DNA from: a virus
IMG/VR virus record: IMGVR_UViG_3300032331_000070
Coordinates: 1 to 23,262 of that record
DNA: 23,262 nt
Strand: one strand, 5' to 3'
How positions within the stretch are numbered: the stretch's first letter is position 1; each line of letters starts with the position of its first letter. Shown one piece after another: positions 10,275 to 15,267 of the stretch. A program made the translations under genes and the position numbers. The notes beneath the pieces are model-generated. The model was not told where the DNA came from. It ran no database searches and saw only the letters and a program-made list of their open reading frames with translations.

Positions 10275-10430
10275 ATGTACAAACTTGTCAAGTTATTAAA
10301 CAATGAATTAAGCGAATATGCAGTCAGACTATCTGATAACGCTTTGGTGCATCGCGAATTAAACCAAGCCTACCTTGCATGGCTTGCAGAAGGCAATACA
10401 CCACTTCCCGCAGATGAGGTAACAGAATGA
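10275..10430 (+). CDS. Small fibre partner, 51 aa
   Basis: ATG 10275 follows the fibre stop TAA (10272-10274) directly, and TGA at 10428-10430 overlaps the next ATG. It is 51 aa: MYKLVKLLNNELSEYAVRLSD, then NQAYLAWLAEGNTPLPADEVTE. The AYLAWLAEGNTPLPAD ending is a known pattern of mini-proteins beside phage fibres, thought to be fibre assembly helpers. It is the second fibre-partner pair in a row. Confidence 0.75.
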   Translation: MYKLVKLLNNELSEYAVRLSDNALVHRELNQAYLAWLAEGNTPLPADEVTE

Positions 10431-10903
10431 CTACAGTAATAGACGGAACAAACGGGGTCACATTCCCAGCAGGCGGCATAGGTAACCCTGCAAGCGCAGT
10501 TGTCGGTATAACTGACTCTCAGACGTTAACCAACAAGACTATTAACGGTTCTCAGTTGGTTGCATCAAGTGTTGCTTACGCAAAGCTGCTTACGACTGAC
10601 TGGACAAATTCACAAGCCGCAAGTGGGTATCAAAAGTTGCCAAGTGGGTTATACATTCAGTGGGGGAACTTTGCCACAGGAGCAGTTGCTGGAAATAACT
10701 TCGGAAGTGGCACTCTTACATTCCCCAACGCCTTTCCAACTGCGTGTTTCAACATTATTTTTAACCCTTCTAGAGGCTCTAACGCGTATGTTTACATGGG
10801 GTCTTATGGAGTGCCAACGGCAACAACTTGCGCTTGGTTTATAAATAACGCGGCTGGCTCGTCTCAATCACCAACTGCCCACTGGATAGCCATTGGCAAC
10901 TAA
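10427..10903 (+). CDS. Tail fibre with gp53-like C-terminal domain
   Basis: 158 aa, ATGA-coupled. The N-terminal 50 residues are a shaft with DGTNGVTFPAGG and DSQTLTNKTI, a repeat motif of phage fibres. The C-terminal domain begins near residue 66, SGYQKLPSGLYIQWGNF, continues LTFPNAFPTACFNIIFNP and ends AHWIAIGN. G.Q.LPSGL..QWG...FP.AFP......WIAIGN is the signature of the gp53-like fibre C-terminal domain, a receptor-binding tip. The gene is short, so it may form a side fibre tip. Confidence 0.85.
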   Translation: MTTVIDGTNGVTFPAGGIGNPASAVVGITDSQTLTNKTINGSQLVASSVAYAKLLTTDWTNSQAASGYQKLPSGLYIQWGNFATGAVAGNNFGSGTLTFPNAFPTACFNIIFNPSRGSNAYVYMGSYGVPTATTCAWFINNAAGSSQSPTAHWIAIGN

Positions 10904-10911
10904 GGAAAAAT

Positions 10912-11238
10912 ATGTTTTATTCAAAATCTACTGGGGGCTTCTATAGCGTTGAAATTCATGGCAACAACATGCCGGACGACGCTTTGGAAATTACTGATGA
11001 AAACTATGCTGCTTTAATTGCAGGGCAAGCGCAGGGCAAGGAAATTGCAGCCGATGACAACGGCGCTCCTATTCTGGTTGATAGGCCCGTAGTTGAATTA
11101 ACTTACGCGCAGAAACGTGCGTCAGAGTACCCACCCATGACTGACTACCTTGATGGTGTTGTTAAGGGTGACCAAGCGCAAATTGACAAGTACATAGCCG
11201 ACTGTTTGGCGGTCAAAGCCAAATACCCAAAGGTATAA
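10912..11238 (+). CDS. Tail fibre assembly chaperone-like protein
   Basis: 108 aa, with AAGGA upstream. The N-terminus MFYSKSTGGFYSVEIHGNNMPDDALEITDENYAAL matches phage Tfa-type fibre assembly proteins (YS..TGGFY...I.G.NIP.DA.EIT...Y..L). The C-terminal part TYAQKRASEYPPMTDYLDGVV...YIADCLAVKAKYPK resembles that of the 13313 protein. The last codons carry AAAGG that may serve the ATT frame at 11242. Confidence 0.85.
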   Translation: MFYSKSTGGFYSVEIHGNNMPDDALEITDENYAALIAGQAQGKEIAADDNGAPILVDRPVVELTYAQKRASEYPPMTDYLDGVVKGDQAQIDKYIADCLAVKAKYPKV

Positions 11239-11241
11239 GAC

Positions 11242-11331
11242 ATTGACCCAATCCACACCTTCTTTGCCGCCAGTGCTTGTATTGCCGCAATCAACGAACA
11301 GCAAAACGTAGATAATCAACCAAATCCATAA
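11242..11331 (+). pseudogene. Truncated copy of the 13601 gene, ATT start
   Basis: 29 codons: ATT GAC CCA ATC ... TAA. It begins one codon after the stop of the 10912 gene, in the same frame, and reads IDPIHTFFAASACIAAIN before ending EQQNVDNQPNP. The first 18 residues match the start of the 13601 protein at 12 positions; the DNA matches at 41 of 54 bases. After that the two diverge. AAAGG lies eight bases before ATT, as at 13601. It may be a broken relic or a real micro-peptide made from ATT. No ATG, GTG, TTG or CTG occurs in this frame. Confidence 0.6.
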
Positions 11332-11340
11332 GGAGCAGCC

Positions 11341-13311
11341 ATGAGCAGCACATATTCCACCAGCTTACGAGTCGAGCTTATCGGCTCGGGCGACCAAGCC
11401 GGTACATGGGGAACCACTACCGACAATAACTTTGCCTACATTTTTGACGCAGCAATCGCTGGGTATCAGGCGGTCACAATTTCCTCTACCGCCCAAGCCT
11501 TGACTTATGTGAACGGGCCGACATCCTCTGCGTCTTTGAACCAGTCTGTGTATGCCATTCTGAAATTCAACGGCGCGGCTGCGGCTTCTGCTGTCTATGC
11601 TCCGCCCGTCTCCAAGCAGTACATCATCTGGAACAACTCCAGCTACGCAATCACCATCTATAACTCGACCGTGATTGGCAACACAACTGCCGCCGGTACT
11701 GGGATTGCAATTTCCGCTGGTGACAAGATCATGGTGTGGTCAGATGGCACAAACTTCTACGACCTACAAGCGCAGAACCTGACCAGCACACTGGCTATTG
11801 CCAAGGGCGGTACAGGACAAACCACAGCAAACGCCGCATTCAACGCGCTGGCTCCCGCACAAACCAGCACTGTTACAGCGGGGAATTTTGTAGTTGGCGC
11901 TACATACACCATCCTTACTGTAGGAACAACAAACTTTGTAGCGATTGGCGCATCCTCCGATACGGTGGGTGTTGTATTTACTGCCACAGGAGTTGGATCT
12001 GGTACAGGAACAGCAACTACCCCTTCTCCTAATAGATACCTAAAGACTGACGGCACAAATACTTCTTTTGACCAATTCAATTTAGCATCAACTACAACTG
12101 TTACTGCTGGCAGCTTTGTAATTGGGACTACATACACAATACTGACTGTTGGAACAACAAGCTTTACGTCAATTGGTGCAGCATCAAATACTGTTGGCGT
12201 GGTGTTTACAGCTACAGGCGCGGGTTCTGGAACAGGCACGGCATTCACAGCCGACTATGTTGGTTTGCTCCCCGCCAGTTCAGGTGGTACAGGCGTTACA
12301 AGCTCTACTGGTTCAGGTAGCGTTGTACTGTCTACAAGCCCAACACTAACTTCGGCTACAGAAAACTTCCCTACACTTAATTACTTTACGCTTAACACGT
12401 ATGGAAATATTAAGGCGTTATTTGAGGCGGCGACTGTCACTGCATCTGCGCCTACCTCAACAACAAACTTTGATATAACCACGCAGGCAATTCAGTATTA
12501 CACCAGCAACAACTCAACCAACTTTACCCTTAACTTTAGGGGTGCGGCCACCGCCACAATAACAGCCGGTAGTTTTGTTGTCGGGACAATTTACACAATT
12601 GCTTCAATTGGCACAACTGACTTTACATTGATTGGCGCAGCATCAAATACAGTAGGTGTAATATTTACTGCAACAGGTGTTGGCGCTGGTTCAGGCACGG
12701 CCACAACAGGATCTTTAAATAGCATCTTGGCTATAGGGCAAGCAGTAAACTGCACGTTGATTGTGACAAACGGGGCAACAGCGTACTACCCCACGGCCTT
12801 CCAAATTGATGGCGCATCGGTCACACCCAAGTGGCCTAGAGGAGCTGCGCCAACGGCGGGTACTGCAAATGCTGTCGATGTGTACACGTTCTCAATAGTT
12901 AAAACAGCGAGCGCAACATATACTGTTTTAGCTGATTCTGGTAATGTCGTTATACCCGTTGCTTCTGGTGGTACAGGGCAAACTACGGCAGCTTTGGCTG
13001 GCGCGGCTTTTGGGGCAATTGGTGTTGGTCAAACTTGGCAGGCACCATCAAGAGCATTTGGAACAACATATACCAATAGCACGGGCAGACCAATCTGTGT
13101 TGTGATTTGCGTAACGCCGCCTGGCACAAACGGGTATGTCAACGTGGTTGTTCAAGGAGTAACAATTGCAATTCTTGGCGTAACAAGTGGTGCCGCATCG
13201 TCAGTTCCTGCAACCGCGTGTTTTGTTGTTCCTGATGGCGCAACATATAGCTCAAGCGTTGCAAGCGGTTCAACCCCCGGTTTGCAATATTGGAAAGAAT
13301 TAAGGACATAA
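11341..13311 (+). CDS. Large tail fibre with three 50-residue repeats
   Basis: 656 aa after GGAG. Residues 1-150 are a fibre anchor type (YSTSLRVELIGSGDQAGTWGTTTDNNF, then VPKQYIIWNNSS-like and MVWSDGTNFYDL). The shaft has fibre hinge motifs GGTGQTT or GGTGVT three times (near 155, 318 and 542). Between them are three copies of AG.FVVGT.YTI..VGTT.F..IGAASNTVGVVFTATG.G.GTGTAT. The C-terminal 100 residues (GVGQTWQAPSRAFGTTYTNSTGRPICVVICV) form a beta jelly-roll tip common in phage fibres. It is the longest fibre here and probably the main receptor-binding one. Confidence 0.85.
   Translation: MSSTYSTSLRVELIGSGDQAGTWGTTTDNNFAYIFDAAIAGYQAVTISSTAQALTYVNGPTSSASLNQSVYAILKFNGAAAASAVYAPPVSKQYIIWNNSSYAITIYNSTVIGNTTAAGTGIAISAGDKIMVWSDGTNFYDLQAQNLTSTLAIAKGGTGQTTANAAFNALAPAQTSTVTAGNFVVGATYTILTVGTTNFVAIGASSDTVGVVFTATGVGSGTGTATTPSPNRYLKTDGTNTSFDQFNLASTTTVTAGSFVIGTTYTILTVGTTSFTSIGAASNTVGVVFTATGAGSGTGTAFTADYVGLLPASSGGTGVTSSTGSGSVVLSTSPTLTSATENFPTLNYFTLNTYGNIKALFEAATVTASAPTSTTNFDITTQAIQYYTSNNSTNFTLNFRGAATATITAGSFVVGTIYTIASIGTTDFTLIGAASNTVGVIFTATGVGAGSGTATTGSLNSILAIGQAVNCTLIVTNGATAYYPTAFQIDGASVTPKWPRGAAPTAGTANAVDVYTFSIVKTASATYTVLADSGNVVIPVASGGTGQTTAALAGAAFGAIGVGQTWQAPSRAFGTTYTNSTGRPICVVICVTPPGTNGYVNVVVQGVTIAILGVTSGAASSVPATACFVVPDGATYSSSVASGSTPGLQYWKELRT
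11869..12708 (+). repeat. Three dispersed ~150-bp coding repeats
   Basis: Copies lie at about 11869-12020, 12097-12249 and 12556-12708. Each encodes a unit of about 50 residues built on TAG.FV.G..YTI...GTT.F..IGA.S.TVGV.FTATG.G. Copies 1 and 2 are close together and similar; copy 3 is set apart by 300 bases of other shaft sequence. The same unit is frequent in phage virion proteins. Confidence 0.85.
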
Positions 13312-13312
13312 C

Positions 13313-13597
13313 ATGCCACATTTTAAAGATTCAGAAAATAAAATTTATTGGCTTGACGAGGGCGATGATCCTGCGGTCTGGTTGCCTCAATGCACGCCAA
13401 TAACAGAAGCAGAAAAGGATTCAATCCTAGCTGCGCAACAAGCCGCTGCTGAGGCTATGTTGACCTATACGCAGAAACGTGTAGGTGAATATCCGCCCAT
13501 CGGTGACCAACTTGATGCACTGTTTAAGGCCGGAGTATTCCCTGCTGACATGGCGGCACGCATACAAGCAGTCAAGGATAAGTACCCCAAGGCGTAA
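13313..13597 (+). CDS. Tail fibre chaperone-like protein
   Basis: 94 aa, starting one base after the fibre stop. It reads MPHFKDSENKIYWLDEGDD, WLPQCTPITEAEKDSILAAQQ and TYTQKRVGEYPPIGDQLDALFKAG, and ends RIQAVKDKYPKA. The EYPPIGDQLDALFK...KYPK block is common in small phage proteins after fibre genes and is shared with the 10912 protein, while the N-terminal halves differ. It likely helps fold or attach the 11341 fibre. Confidence 0.8.
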   Translation: MPHFKDSENKIYWLDEGDDPAVWLPQCTPITEAEKDSILAAQQAAAEAMLTYTQKRVGEYPPIGDQLDALFKAGVFPADMAARIQAVKDKYPKA

Positions 13598-13603
13598 AAA
13601 ATT
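13589..13603 (+). promoter_or_regulatory. Ribosome site and ATT start of the 13601 gene
   Basis: AAGG (13589-13592) is followed by eight bases and ATT (13601-13603). The same layout occurs at 11229-11244 (AAAGG, eight bases, ATT). The upstream stop TAA (13595-13597) lies between the site and the start. No common start codon occurs in this frame until ATG 13694, which has no ribosome site and would remove the conserved IDPI end. Confidence 0.55.
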
Positions 13604-14266
13604 GATCCGATCTCCATCATCTTTGCCGCCAATGCCTGCGTCGCCGCAATTAAACAGGGATGCAAGCTATACAAAGACGCCAAAACGTCTTTCATGGAGG
13701 TCAAGAAGACTGTTGATGAAGTTGTTTCAGATGCCAAGGCTGTCAGAAGTTTCTGGCAAAAGCTATTTGGAGCAGCGCCCACCTCAAGCCCCAAGCCTGT
13801 GGCGAAAAAGGAAGCCTACGTTGCCGTTGACGAAACCCAAGTCATGTCAGACATCGTTACCCAGCTTACAAAACTTTTCAGGCTTGAGGAGCAGCTTGCT
13901 GACCACATAAGGGAAGAGGAAGAGAAGAGCAAGACAGTTTACGACCCTGATGCCAACTTGATGGAAGCTGCGTTGCAACGTGTATTGGCGCAGCAGCAGA
14001 TGGCGGATTTGATAGTGACGGTAAGGGAAACAATGGTGTACCAATCCCCGCCTGAGTTGGGTGCGCTGTACAGCAAAGTGTTTGAGATGCGAGATGTCAT
14101 CAAAGCAGAACAGGACAAGGCAAGGAAGAAACGGGATGATGAGTCATGGCAACGCAGGGAGGAAGAGCGGCTTCTAAAGGAAAGGCAAGCGTATCTGCTG
14201 GCGACTTTCCTATTCCTCCTATATATGTGGTTGCTCCTCGGCCTCTTGTACAGGATTGGGAAGTAG
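13601..14266 (+). CDS. Coiled-coil membrane protein at head of lysis cassette, probable ATT start
   Basis: 221 aa if read from ATT 13601 (190 aa from ATG 13694). The N-terminus IDPISIIFAANACVAAIKQGCKLYKDAKTSF matches small phage proteins that begin MDPI with a helix followed by K.YKD. The 31 codons before ATG 13694 are also conserved at 11242, so they are coding. The middle is acidic and helical, residues about 130-195 are a charged coiled coil (EQDKARKKRDDESWQRREEERLL), and 196-217 form a membrane helix (AYLLATFLFLLYMWLLLGLL). The small protein, holin and endolysin follow at once. A lysis or regulator role is plausible; not proved. Confidence 0.65.
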   Translation: MDPISIIFAANACVAAIKQGCKLYKDAKTSFMEVKKTVDEVVSDAKAVRSFWQKLFGAAPTSSPKPVAKKEAYVAVDETQVMSDIVTQLTKLFRLEEQLADHIREEEEKSKTVYDPDANLMEAALQRVLAQQQMADLIVTVRETMVYQSPPELGALYSKVFEMRDVIKAEQDKARKKRDDESWQRREEERLLKERQAYLLATFLFLLYMWLLLGLLYRIGK

Positions 14267-14268
14267 TT

Positions 14269-14451
14269 ATGGGTTGGATCGCGGCGTGTGTATTGGTTGT
14301 GTTGATGTTGCCCTTGCTTGGGATGTTGTACATGGATGTGCTGCAAACCAAAAAGGAAGCCCAAGCGCAGATTGAGAAGATGGAAAAAGTGCGTAGACAA
14401 GTTGAAAAGGAAAAACGAGATGATTCCAATAGTCGCAACTCTCCTCAGTAG
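14269..14451 (+). CDS. Small membrane protein with coiled coil (inner-spanin-like layout)
   Basis: 60 aa: MGWIAACVLVVLMLPLLGML is one membrane helix, followed by a charged coiled coil (KKEAQAQIEKMEKVRRQVEKEKRDD). The start is two bases after the upstream stop. An earlier in-frame ATG at 14146 would add 41 residues inside the preceding gene; it has no ribosome site. A short N-terminal helix plus a coiled coil is the layout of inner-membrane spanins, but it is very short and no lipoprotein partner is visible. It overlaps the holin start by 32 bases. Lysis partner is the likely role. Confidence 0.65.
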   Translation: MGWIAACVLVVLMLPLLGMLYMDVLQTKKEAQAQIEKMEKVRRQVEKEKRDDSNSRNSPQ

Positions 14452-14929
14452 CCTAGCCGAGAATGGCCTTGGGTTACTGTCGTCTGCCATCCAAGCCAAA
14501 GGCAAGGAAGTGGTGGAGAACACCCTTGGTGTGAAGATTCCCGATGCCCCTACCGCAGAAGATGTAAGCAAGCTGCGCCAGCTTCAGTTTGAGCATGAGG
14601 AAAAGCTCCTTGAACTGGGTATTGAGAAAGCCAAGCTGGAACTGGAAGAGATGAAGGTTTTGGCGGCGGCAGCACAAAACGATGCCGACAACATCACAGA
14701 CCGCTGGGAAGCAGATATGTCCAGCGACTCTTGGCTGTCCAAAAACATTCGCCCCATGAGTCTGATTGCCATCTTTTTGGGGTATTTCCTGTTTGCCATG
14801 ATGAGTGCCTTTGGCTACAACGCCAACGAGTCGTATGTCACCCTTCTGGGTAACTGGGGTATGCTTATCATGGGTGCTTATTTTGGTGGTCGCACAGTTG
14901 AAAAACTGGCAGAAATGAGGAAGAAATGA
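14420..14929 (+). CDS. Holin, GTA 3TM type
   Basis: 169 aa from ATG 14420, inside the end of the 14269 gene. A helical N-terminal half (TAEDVSKLRQLQFEHEEKLLELGIEKAKLELEE) leads to RWEADMSSDSWLSKNIRP (95-112), then two membrane helices, about 113-133 (MSLIAIFLGYFLFAMMSAFGY) and 139-158 (VTLLGNWGMLIMGAYFGG), with a basic tail. The RW.ADM.SDSWLSKN.RP block before the helices is the signature of the holin_3TM family of gene transfer agents and phages. It should form the membrane pore for the M15 endolysin that follows. Confidence 0.9.
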   Translation: MIPIVATLLSSLAENGLGLLSSAIQAKGKEVVENTLGVKIPDAPTAEDVSKLRQLQFEHEEKLLELGIEKAKLELEEMKVLAAAAQNDADNITDRWEADMSSDSWLSKNIRPMSLIAIFLGYFLFAMMSAFGYNANESYVTLLGNWGMLIMGAYFGGRTVEKLAEMRKK

Positions 14930-15267
14930 GCCTTAACCAAGAACAAGCCGCATTCCTGCTGGACATGTGCAAGCTAATCCAATATGCTACAGACCAAGGG
15001 TTTGTGGTGACTGGCGGGGAACTTGCCCGTACACCTGAACAGCAAGCAATATACTTCAAGACGGGTCGATCCAAGACAATGAACTCCATCCATCTAAAGC
15101 GGTGCGCCATAGATTTGAATTTTTTCAAGGATGGAAAGATCATTTGGGACAAAGCAGTCCTTGCGCCTCTGGGTGCGTATTGGGAGACCTTGCATCCAAA
15201 GAACCGTTGGGGCGGCAACTTCAAGTCCCTTGTTGATTGCCCTCATTTTGAGCGCAATGTAGGTTAA
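14926..15267 (+). CDS. Endolysin, M15 peptidase (L-Ala-D-Glu / D-Ala-D-Ala type)
   Basis: 113 aa, ATGA-coupled to the holin. The M15 fold is shown by the zinc motif SIHLKRCAIDLNFF, with H56 and D63, and the third ligand H107 in VDCPHFE, with D104 as the likely catalytic acid. RTPEQQAIYFKTGRSKT and RWGGNFKSL are further family blocks. It cuts peptide bonds in peptidoglycan. No signal peptide is present, so it needs the holin to cross the membrane. Length is usual for phage M15 endolysins of this kind. It cleaves another bond than the GH108 domain of the 20916 protein. Confidence 0.9.
   Translation: MSLNQEQAAFLLDMCKLIQYATDQGFVVTGGELARTPEQQAIYFKTGRSKTMNSIHLKRCAIDLNFFKDGKIIWDKAVLAPLGAYWETLHPKNRWGGNFKSLVDCPHFERNVG

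Follow-up and report, generated by a model that had tools for sequence, protein, structure and literature searches.

A truncated copy of an ATT-started phage gene as a probable recombination scar of a fibre-cassette insertion, and a parent gene with probable overlapping starts in two frames

The window analysed here, that is, the whole stretch of 23,262 nucleotides that makes up positions 1 to 23,262 of the IMG/VR virus record IMGVR_UViG_3300032331_000070, carries two open reading frames that begin with ATT, a long one at 13601 and a short one at 11242. What is the short frame, and is ATT a genuine start codon in the long one? The evidence assembled below makes it very probable that 11242-11331 is a recombination scar from the insertion of a cassette, that the ATT of the parent gene is real, and that, most likely, one ribosome site feeds both the ATT frame (frame 0, 221 aa) and a TTG frame (+1, 102 aa).

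The two ATT codons stand in nearly the same surroundings. Behind the TAA of chaperone A, the sequence GAC is followed by the ATT at 11242-11244, which opens a frame of 29 codons, IDPIHTFFAASACIAAINEQQNVDNQPNP, closed by a TAA at 11329-11331, nine bases before fibre gene B; at the full-length gene, the TAA of chaperone B (13595-13597) is followed by AAA and by the ATT at 13601-13603. Comparison of the two copies bore out the original prediction in several respects: 11242-11295 repeats the start of the 13601 gene in 41 of 54 bases and 12 of 18 residues over the first 18 codons, with five silent codon differences; the spacing is equal, AAGG lying 8 nt before ATT at both copies (11230-11233 and 13589-13592); and both copies sit just behind a chaperone TAA (11236-11238 and 13595-13597). 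A profile of the first 20 residues of the ATT gene scores 58.7 at 11242, compared with 35.5 for its best unrelated score in the six frames of about 80 loci and the window, and blastn matches the copy to the locus L010 with E = 3e-12, so that the resemblance is not a matter of chance.

Table. Features of the window around the two ATT-started frames.
Feature	Positions	Strand	Evidence
Tail-fibre gene A, gp53-like C-terminal domain	10427..10903	+	Pfam PF21882, E 1e-15
Fibre-assembly chaperone A, C-terminus KYPKV then TAA (11236-11238)	10912..11238	+	phrog_188 tail fiber assembly, E 5e-19
AAGG, ribosome-binding-like site of the relic	11230..11233	+	read in the sequence
Relic, first 53 bases of the ATT gene; ATT 11242-11244, overlapping TTG 11243-11245	11242..11294	+	85% to L010, E 3e-12
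Relic's +1 frame, 22 codons then TAG	11243..11311	+	read in the sequence
End of another small gene (..EQQNVDNQPNP, stop), joined in frame behind the relic	11292..11331	+	85% to L169 over 11292-11345, E 8e-13
GGAGCAGCC, leader of fibre gene B	11332..11340	+	identical in L169
Tail-fibre gene B, inserted cassette	11341..13311	+	PHROG phrog_5906
Chaperone B, C-terminus KYPKA then TAA (13595-13597)	13313..13597	+	phrog_9114, E 9e-11
AAGG, ribosome-binding-like site of the full ATT gene	13589..13592	+	read in the sequence; family G-rich at -10 to -7
Full-length ATT gene, frame 0, 221 codons	13601..14266	+	393 relatives in viral contigs
Overlapping +1-frame ORF, TTG start, 102 codons, TAA 13908-13910	13602..13910	+	+1 stops avoided in codons 2-86, three clades
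Holin-like gene, downstream context	14426..14929	+	phrog_3427 holin, E 4e-14
Endolysin-like peptidase M15, context	14926..15267	+	PF13539; phrog_465 endolysin

It had been proposed that the copy takes up all 29 codons of 11242-11331. It is indeed a truncated second copy, but the homology ends after 53-54 bases, and another gene supplied the last 11 codons. Blastn splits the stretch between two parents, 11242-11294 going to the ATT gene of L010 and 11292-11345 to L169 (both at 85% identity; E values in the table), and the two matches overlap by 3 bp, the CAA at 11292-11294, which is common to both parents. In L169, the gene before the same kind of fibre ends ..IQKEAKEQQNVDNPPSA, followed by a stop, GGAGCAGCC and ATG; the window at the same place reads ..AINEQQNVDNQPNP, stop, GGAGCAGCC, ATG. 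The split between two parents with a three-base overlap thus identifies the 29-codon ORF as an accidental in-frame chimera of two genes. As in a gene remnant, the 11242 copy is homologous to part of an intact gene and ends at a junction with other DNA.

The genes around the junction indicate how it may have arisen. A similar fibre end lies directly before a complete ATT gene in L009, L010 and L014, and a chaperone does so in L230; a fibre or chaperone followed by the full ATT gene is the expected ancestral order, and no contig with the exact pre-insertion gene order of this phage was found. The simplest history, with an order of events that is itself reconstructed, would be that a new fibre cassette entered at the 5' end of the ATT gene. 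An ancestor with the order fibre A, chaperone A, ATT gene would have received a cassette of fibre B and chaperone B that cut the ATT gene after codon 18, via the 3-bp match CAA, and joined the cut end to the tail of a small gene travelling with fibre B. A complete ATT gene lies behind the new cassette, and the stranded 5' end, retaining its ribosome site and ATT, would decay without selection. The closest relative of tail-fibre gene A is in L089, the counterpart of chaperone A in that locus is 90% identical, and fibre gene B has 574 encoding relatives, several of which are directly behind other genes. Fibre and chaperone modules are exchanged mosaically between phages (PMC10579305), and here, too, fibre and chaperone move as a module; unlike in the described exchanges, 53 bp of the downstream gene remain as a measurable stump, together with a 3-bp junction. 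Taken alone, the relic is an ordinary thing, a dated trace of the swapping of tail-fibre cassettes between phages. Between 9186 and 13597, the window contains three tandem fibre genes with a chaperone-like gene after each (10275-10427, 10912-11238 and 13313-13597), an array that points to repeated cassette gain.

A dN/dS check for purifying selection on the short frame had been suggested, and its outcome does not support such selection. The relic differs from the window's own 13601 gene by 6 silent and 7 replacement changes, but that gene is not its closest relative. Against L010, the nearest full-length relative, the relic shows 2 silent and 7 replacement changes, with dS of 0.18 and dN of 0.19 over 54 bases, a modest test; pairs of full-length ATT genes with 10-16 differences show on average 8.9 silent and 3.4 replacement changes. 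The silent changes counted within the window mostly reflect the divergence between gene lineages. Since dN and dS are about equal against the nearest relative, the 11242 copy is best read, given a short sequence and a modest test, as a decaying relic without purifying selection and not as a selected micro-peptide.

A second, independent truncated copy of the ATT gene exists. In L235 (L235:2489) and in L252-L256, 54 bases of the ATT gene follow a different fibre; the gene is again cut at codon 18, with another gene directly after it and different neighbours, the frame runs straight into that next gene, and in L235 the full ATT gene is present further on. Two pattern scans of the viral collection revealed no other relics. 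Both relics share, in addition to the cut at codon 18, an ACC (Thr) at codon 6, and chance decay does not account for the two common features.

Of the alternatives suggested for the short frame, the original prediction had left that of a micro-peptide beside that of a relic, and only the relic is supported. A functional, ATT-started peptide of 29 residues would fit the intact ribosome site with its spacing, the in-frame fusion and the 29 open codons; against it, replacement changes outnumber silent ones relative to the nearest relative and fall on the near-constant family residues S5, I6, N11, V14 and K18, while in the other relic the frame just continues into the next gene. A search of related phages for the frame had been suggested, and it yielded no relative of the chimera: the two pattern scans of the viral collection detected no other contig with such an ORF, and the other relic has an unrelated tail. 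We therefore regard a functional micro-peptide as highly improbable. It has to be considered, too, that the truncated 5' end might be retained as a recombination anchor, a short common sequence that guides the exchange of fibre cassettes, given that two relics end at the same codon, each at a cassette border, and that the 5' end of the ATT gene stands behind many different genes. With only two events found in the collection, with 53 bases at 81-85% identity offering poor homology, and with common descent or coincidence as possible sources of the same breakpoint, such an anchor appears improbable, and a relic stranded by cassette insertion remains the preferred interpretation.

We then turn to the start of the parent gene. 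The first scan detected 393 encoding relatives of the ATT gene in viral contigs, and later scans added two clades at 33-37% and 52-61% identity, resulting in three clades (A, B and C) that share 33-61% identity in frame 0. With duplicates removed, about 196 full-length 5' ends remain (one contig enters two clades); their codon 1 is ATT in 138, GTG in 54 and ATG, followed by GAT, in 4. The assertion that ATT is no sequencing error thus holds, the 138 ATT cases among these distinct relatives ruling out an error at this place. ATC or ATA never occurs as codon 1 in the same 5' ends; elsewhere in the first 86 codons, ATC is the commoner isoleucine codon compared with ATT. A G-rich block is present at -10 to -7 upstream of the ATT types, and clades A and C have AA at -2 and -1; in most of the GTG types, the G-rich site is absent or weak at the usual place. 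A test on mean Shine-Dalgarno run length found no excess over shuffles, the signal being visible only in the position profile, and RNA folding at both starts is unremarkable. In clade A, a stop codon ends at the base just before ATT in 34 of 83 cases, and in none of the 83 is there a usual start in frame ahead of ATT. Frame 0 is constrained from codon 2 on, with D and P nearly invariant and third bases free. Read-through of the chaperone stop codon was ruled out, the genes and frames upstream of ATT varying between relatives; the internal ATG at 13694 (codon 32) was likewise rejected as the start of the full protein, because codons 2-31 keep their amino acids while their third bases are free, and ATG32 is not present throughout.

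At all of the ATT and GTG starts, a second start overlaps the first in another frame. ATT followed by GAY always places a TTG in the +1 frame, and in the GTG types the +1 start is an ATG at -2 (48) or a GTG or ATG at -5 (6), so that two overlapping starts in different frames are found in the 138 ATT types, with TTG, and in 54 of 54 GTG types. Beginning at the overlapping start, the +1 frame runs without a stop for about 100 codons, compared with the 30 expected from synonymous shuffling. At sites in codons 2-86 that synonymous choice could turn into a +1 stop, a stop is present in 13 of 1166 cases in clade A, 3 of 310 in B and 0 of 885 in C (16 of 2361 in total), counts that come from related sequences and not from independent trials, in a pattern that recurs in three diverged clades; after codon 114, stops occupy 49%, 50% and 60% of the possible sites in clades A, B and C, respectively. 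The avoidance depends on codon context: within the overlap, xTG never precedes A, where it would create a +1 stop (0 of 928), and precedes other bases at 13-21%, while xTA precedes A or G at 0-1% and C or T at 7-18%; downstream of the overlap, this dependence is absent. Plain codon bias is accordingly excluded as the cause of the open frame because the stop-making codons vanish only in a stop-making context. An antisense or +2 gene was also considered and rejected, no other frame, sense or antisense, being depleted of stops.

Both frames are thus under selection to be readable, frame 0 keeping its amino acids with varying third bases and the +1 frame avoiding stops, with +1 stops after 40 codons in 6 of 97 members of clade A. 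The +1 product is weakly conserved, with a single S-L-W-R-K block that is invariant in clade A and also occurs in B. In clades A and B it contains much Ser, Pro, Arg and Leu, a make-up that is usual for overlapping genes (PMC6195259); selection on its composition was not apparent, the clades sharing no direction. Silent diversity in the overlap shows no general reduction apart from the S-L-W-R-K block. The segment CCAAGCCTGTGGCGAAAAAG, which encodes this block in the +1 ORF (window 13602-13910), is nearly fixed at the nucleotide level.

We infer that a conserved ambiguous start site opens two overlapping translated genes, with translation of both frames and initiation at both codons; ATT is probably paired with a second, overlapping start, the +1 frame beginning with the TTG inside ATTG. 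A single ribosome site would bring both of these start codons close to the P site. In the ATT types, TTG would be a stronger start than ATT, making the long protein the minor product; the GTG types have the AUGUG arrangement. More broadly, we lean towards the view that this is a widespread freshwater phage gene family in which an AUUG or AUGUG site would give two overlapping proteins (of ~220 and ~100 residues) from one ribosome site, with side branches that would keep a lone +1 start and reach frame 0 by frameshifting, and with the 11242 copy as a stump.

These side branches make it necessary to ask whether the parent gene is initiated solely in the +1 frame, frame 0 being entered by a -1 frameshift. 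In L263, L266, L267 and L288 (at about position 1490-1520), there is a lone ATG in +1 (ATG GAT CCR TTT TTA GCC), and frame 0 is still selected behind the T run, which suggests that ribosomes in this branch shift by -1 close to the start. The distant relatives at L093:5949, L141:4538 and L143:4538 (MIDPFTAFAMAQGAVAGIKK) have a dnaX-type slippery A AAA AAG right after codon 20; there, reading without a shift stops at 46 aa, and the long protein is reached in the -1 frame. In the ATT and GTG types, however, no slippery site is seen after the start, and frame 0 is constrained from codon 2, so that a shift behind the start would have no space; this fits initiation at ATT or GTG better than a later shift, and frameshifting as the general route is unlikely. 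That ATT would be the sole start, the open +1 frame being an accident of codon choice, has a precedent in infC of E. coli, in which AUU is a known start that is repressed by IF3 (PMC5472188), and is compatible with the poor conservation of the +1 peptide. Yet the stop avoidance is confined to the +1 frame, to the first 86-100 codons and to stop-making contexts, in three clades whose frame-0 identity is 33-61%; ATC and ATA, which are just as weak as starts, are absent; and every GTG type has an in-phase +1 start just before its GTG. We consider ATT as the sole start quite unlikely and favour the two overlapping starts.

Known systems provide both parallels and differences. AUGUG sites in E. coli are translated in both frames, AUG being used several-fold more than GUG, and ambiguous AUGUG or GUGUG starts are represented by pqiA, tamA and narQ in E. 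coli, as well as by the Thermus rnpA-rpmH overlap (PMC9841429). The ATT gene resembles these in having two starts a few bases apart, one ribosome site and two overlapping frames, but the site of most members is AUUG, with AUU read in frame 0 and UUG in +1, and this AUUG would represent a new variant of the dual-frame start; moreover, the second frame extends over ~100 codons and is open in three clades, whereas it comprises 15 codons in pqiA and 10 in tamA (PMC9841429). Translation has been demonstrated for the E. coli sites and is deduced for the ATT gene. The use of AUU as a conserved start codon is shared with the infC gene, which encodes IF3; unlike infC, the phage gene is not known to be linked to IF3, alternates ATT with GTG and always overlaps a +1 start. 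The dual-start holin S of phage lambda has two neighbouring starts in one shared frame. Like lambda S, the ATT gene has two neighbouring starts and lies in a lysis region, but its starts open different frames and its lysis role is a guess from position. Dual-frame starts in E. coli were demonstrated only recently, with very short second frames, and hundreds of natural phage sequences now appear to keep such a start with a second frame of ~100 codons. Gene finders see neither start of the two frames; if the proposed reading is true, a hidden gene would lie beside the lysis genes, AUUG would be a new start motif, and the family would offer a natural series with changes in how the second frame is entered.

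With regard to function, searches of Pfam, NCBIfam, PADLOC and PDB assigned neither the frame-0 nor the +1 product to a family, and PHROGs gave unknown families only. None of the bacterial genomes searched encodes a relative, and phage records yielded no DNA match and three distant protein matches. The frame-0 protein has a conserved N-terminal helix and a hydrophobic stretch near the C-terminus, which may anchor it in a membrane. It is encoded between the fibre cassettes and the holin-like and endolysin-like genes; from this position, a role in lysis can only be guessed at. In two annotated relatives, at L082:4025 and L083:4022 (MW202462 and MW202484), the start was set within the conserved N-terminus, about 24 bases in. 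In L089, behind the ATT gene, small lipoprotein-like ORFs that overlap other genes (L089:5398-5592 and L089:6114-6362) resemble the outer-membrane spanins of a lysis cassette.
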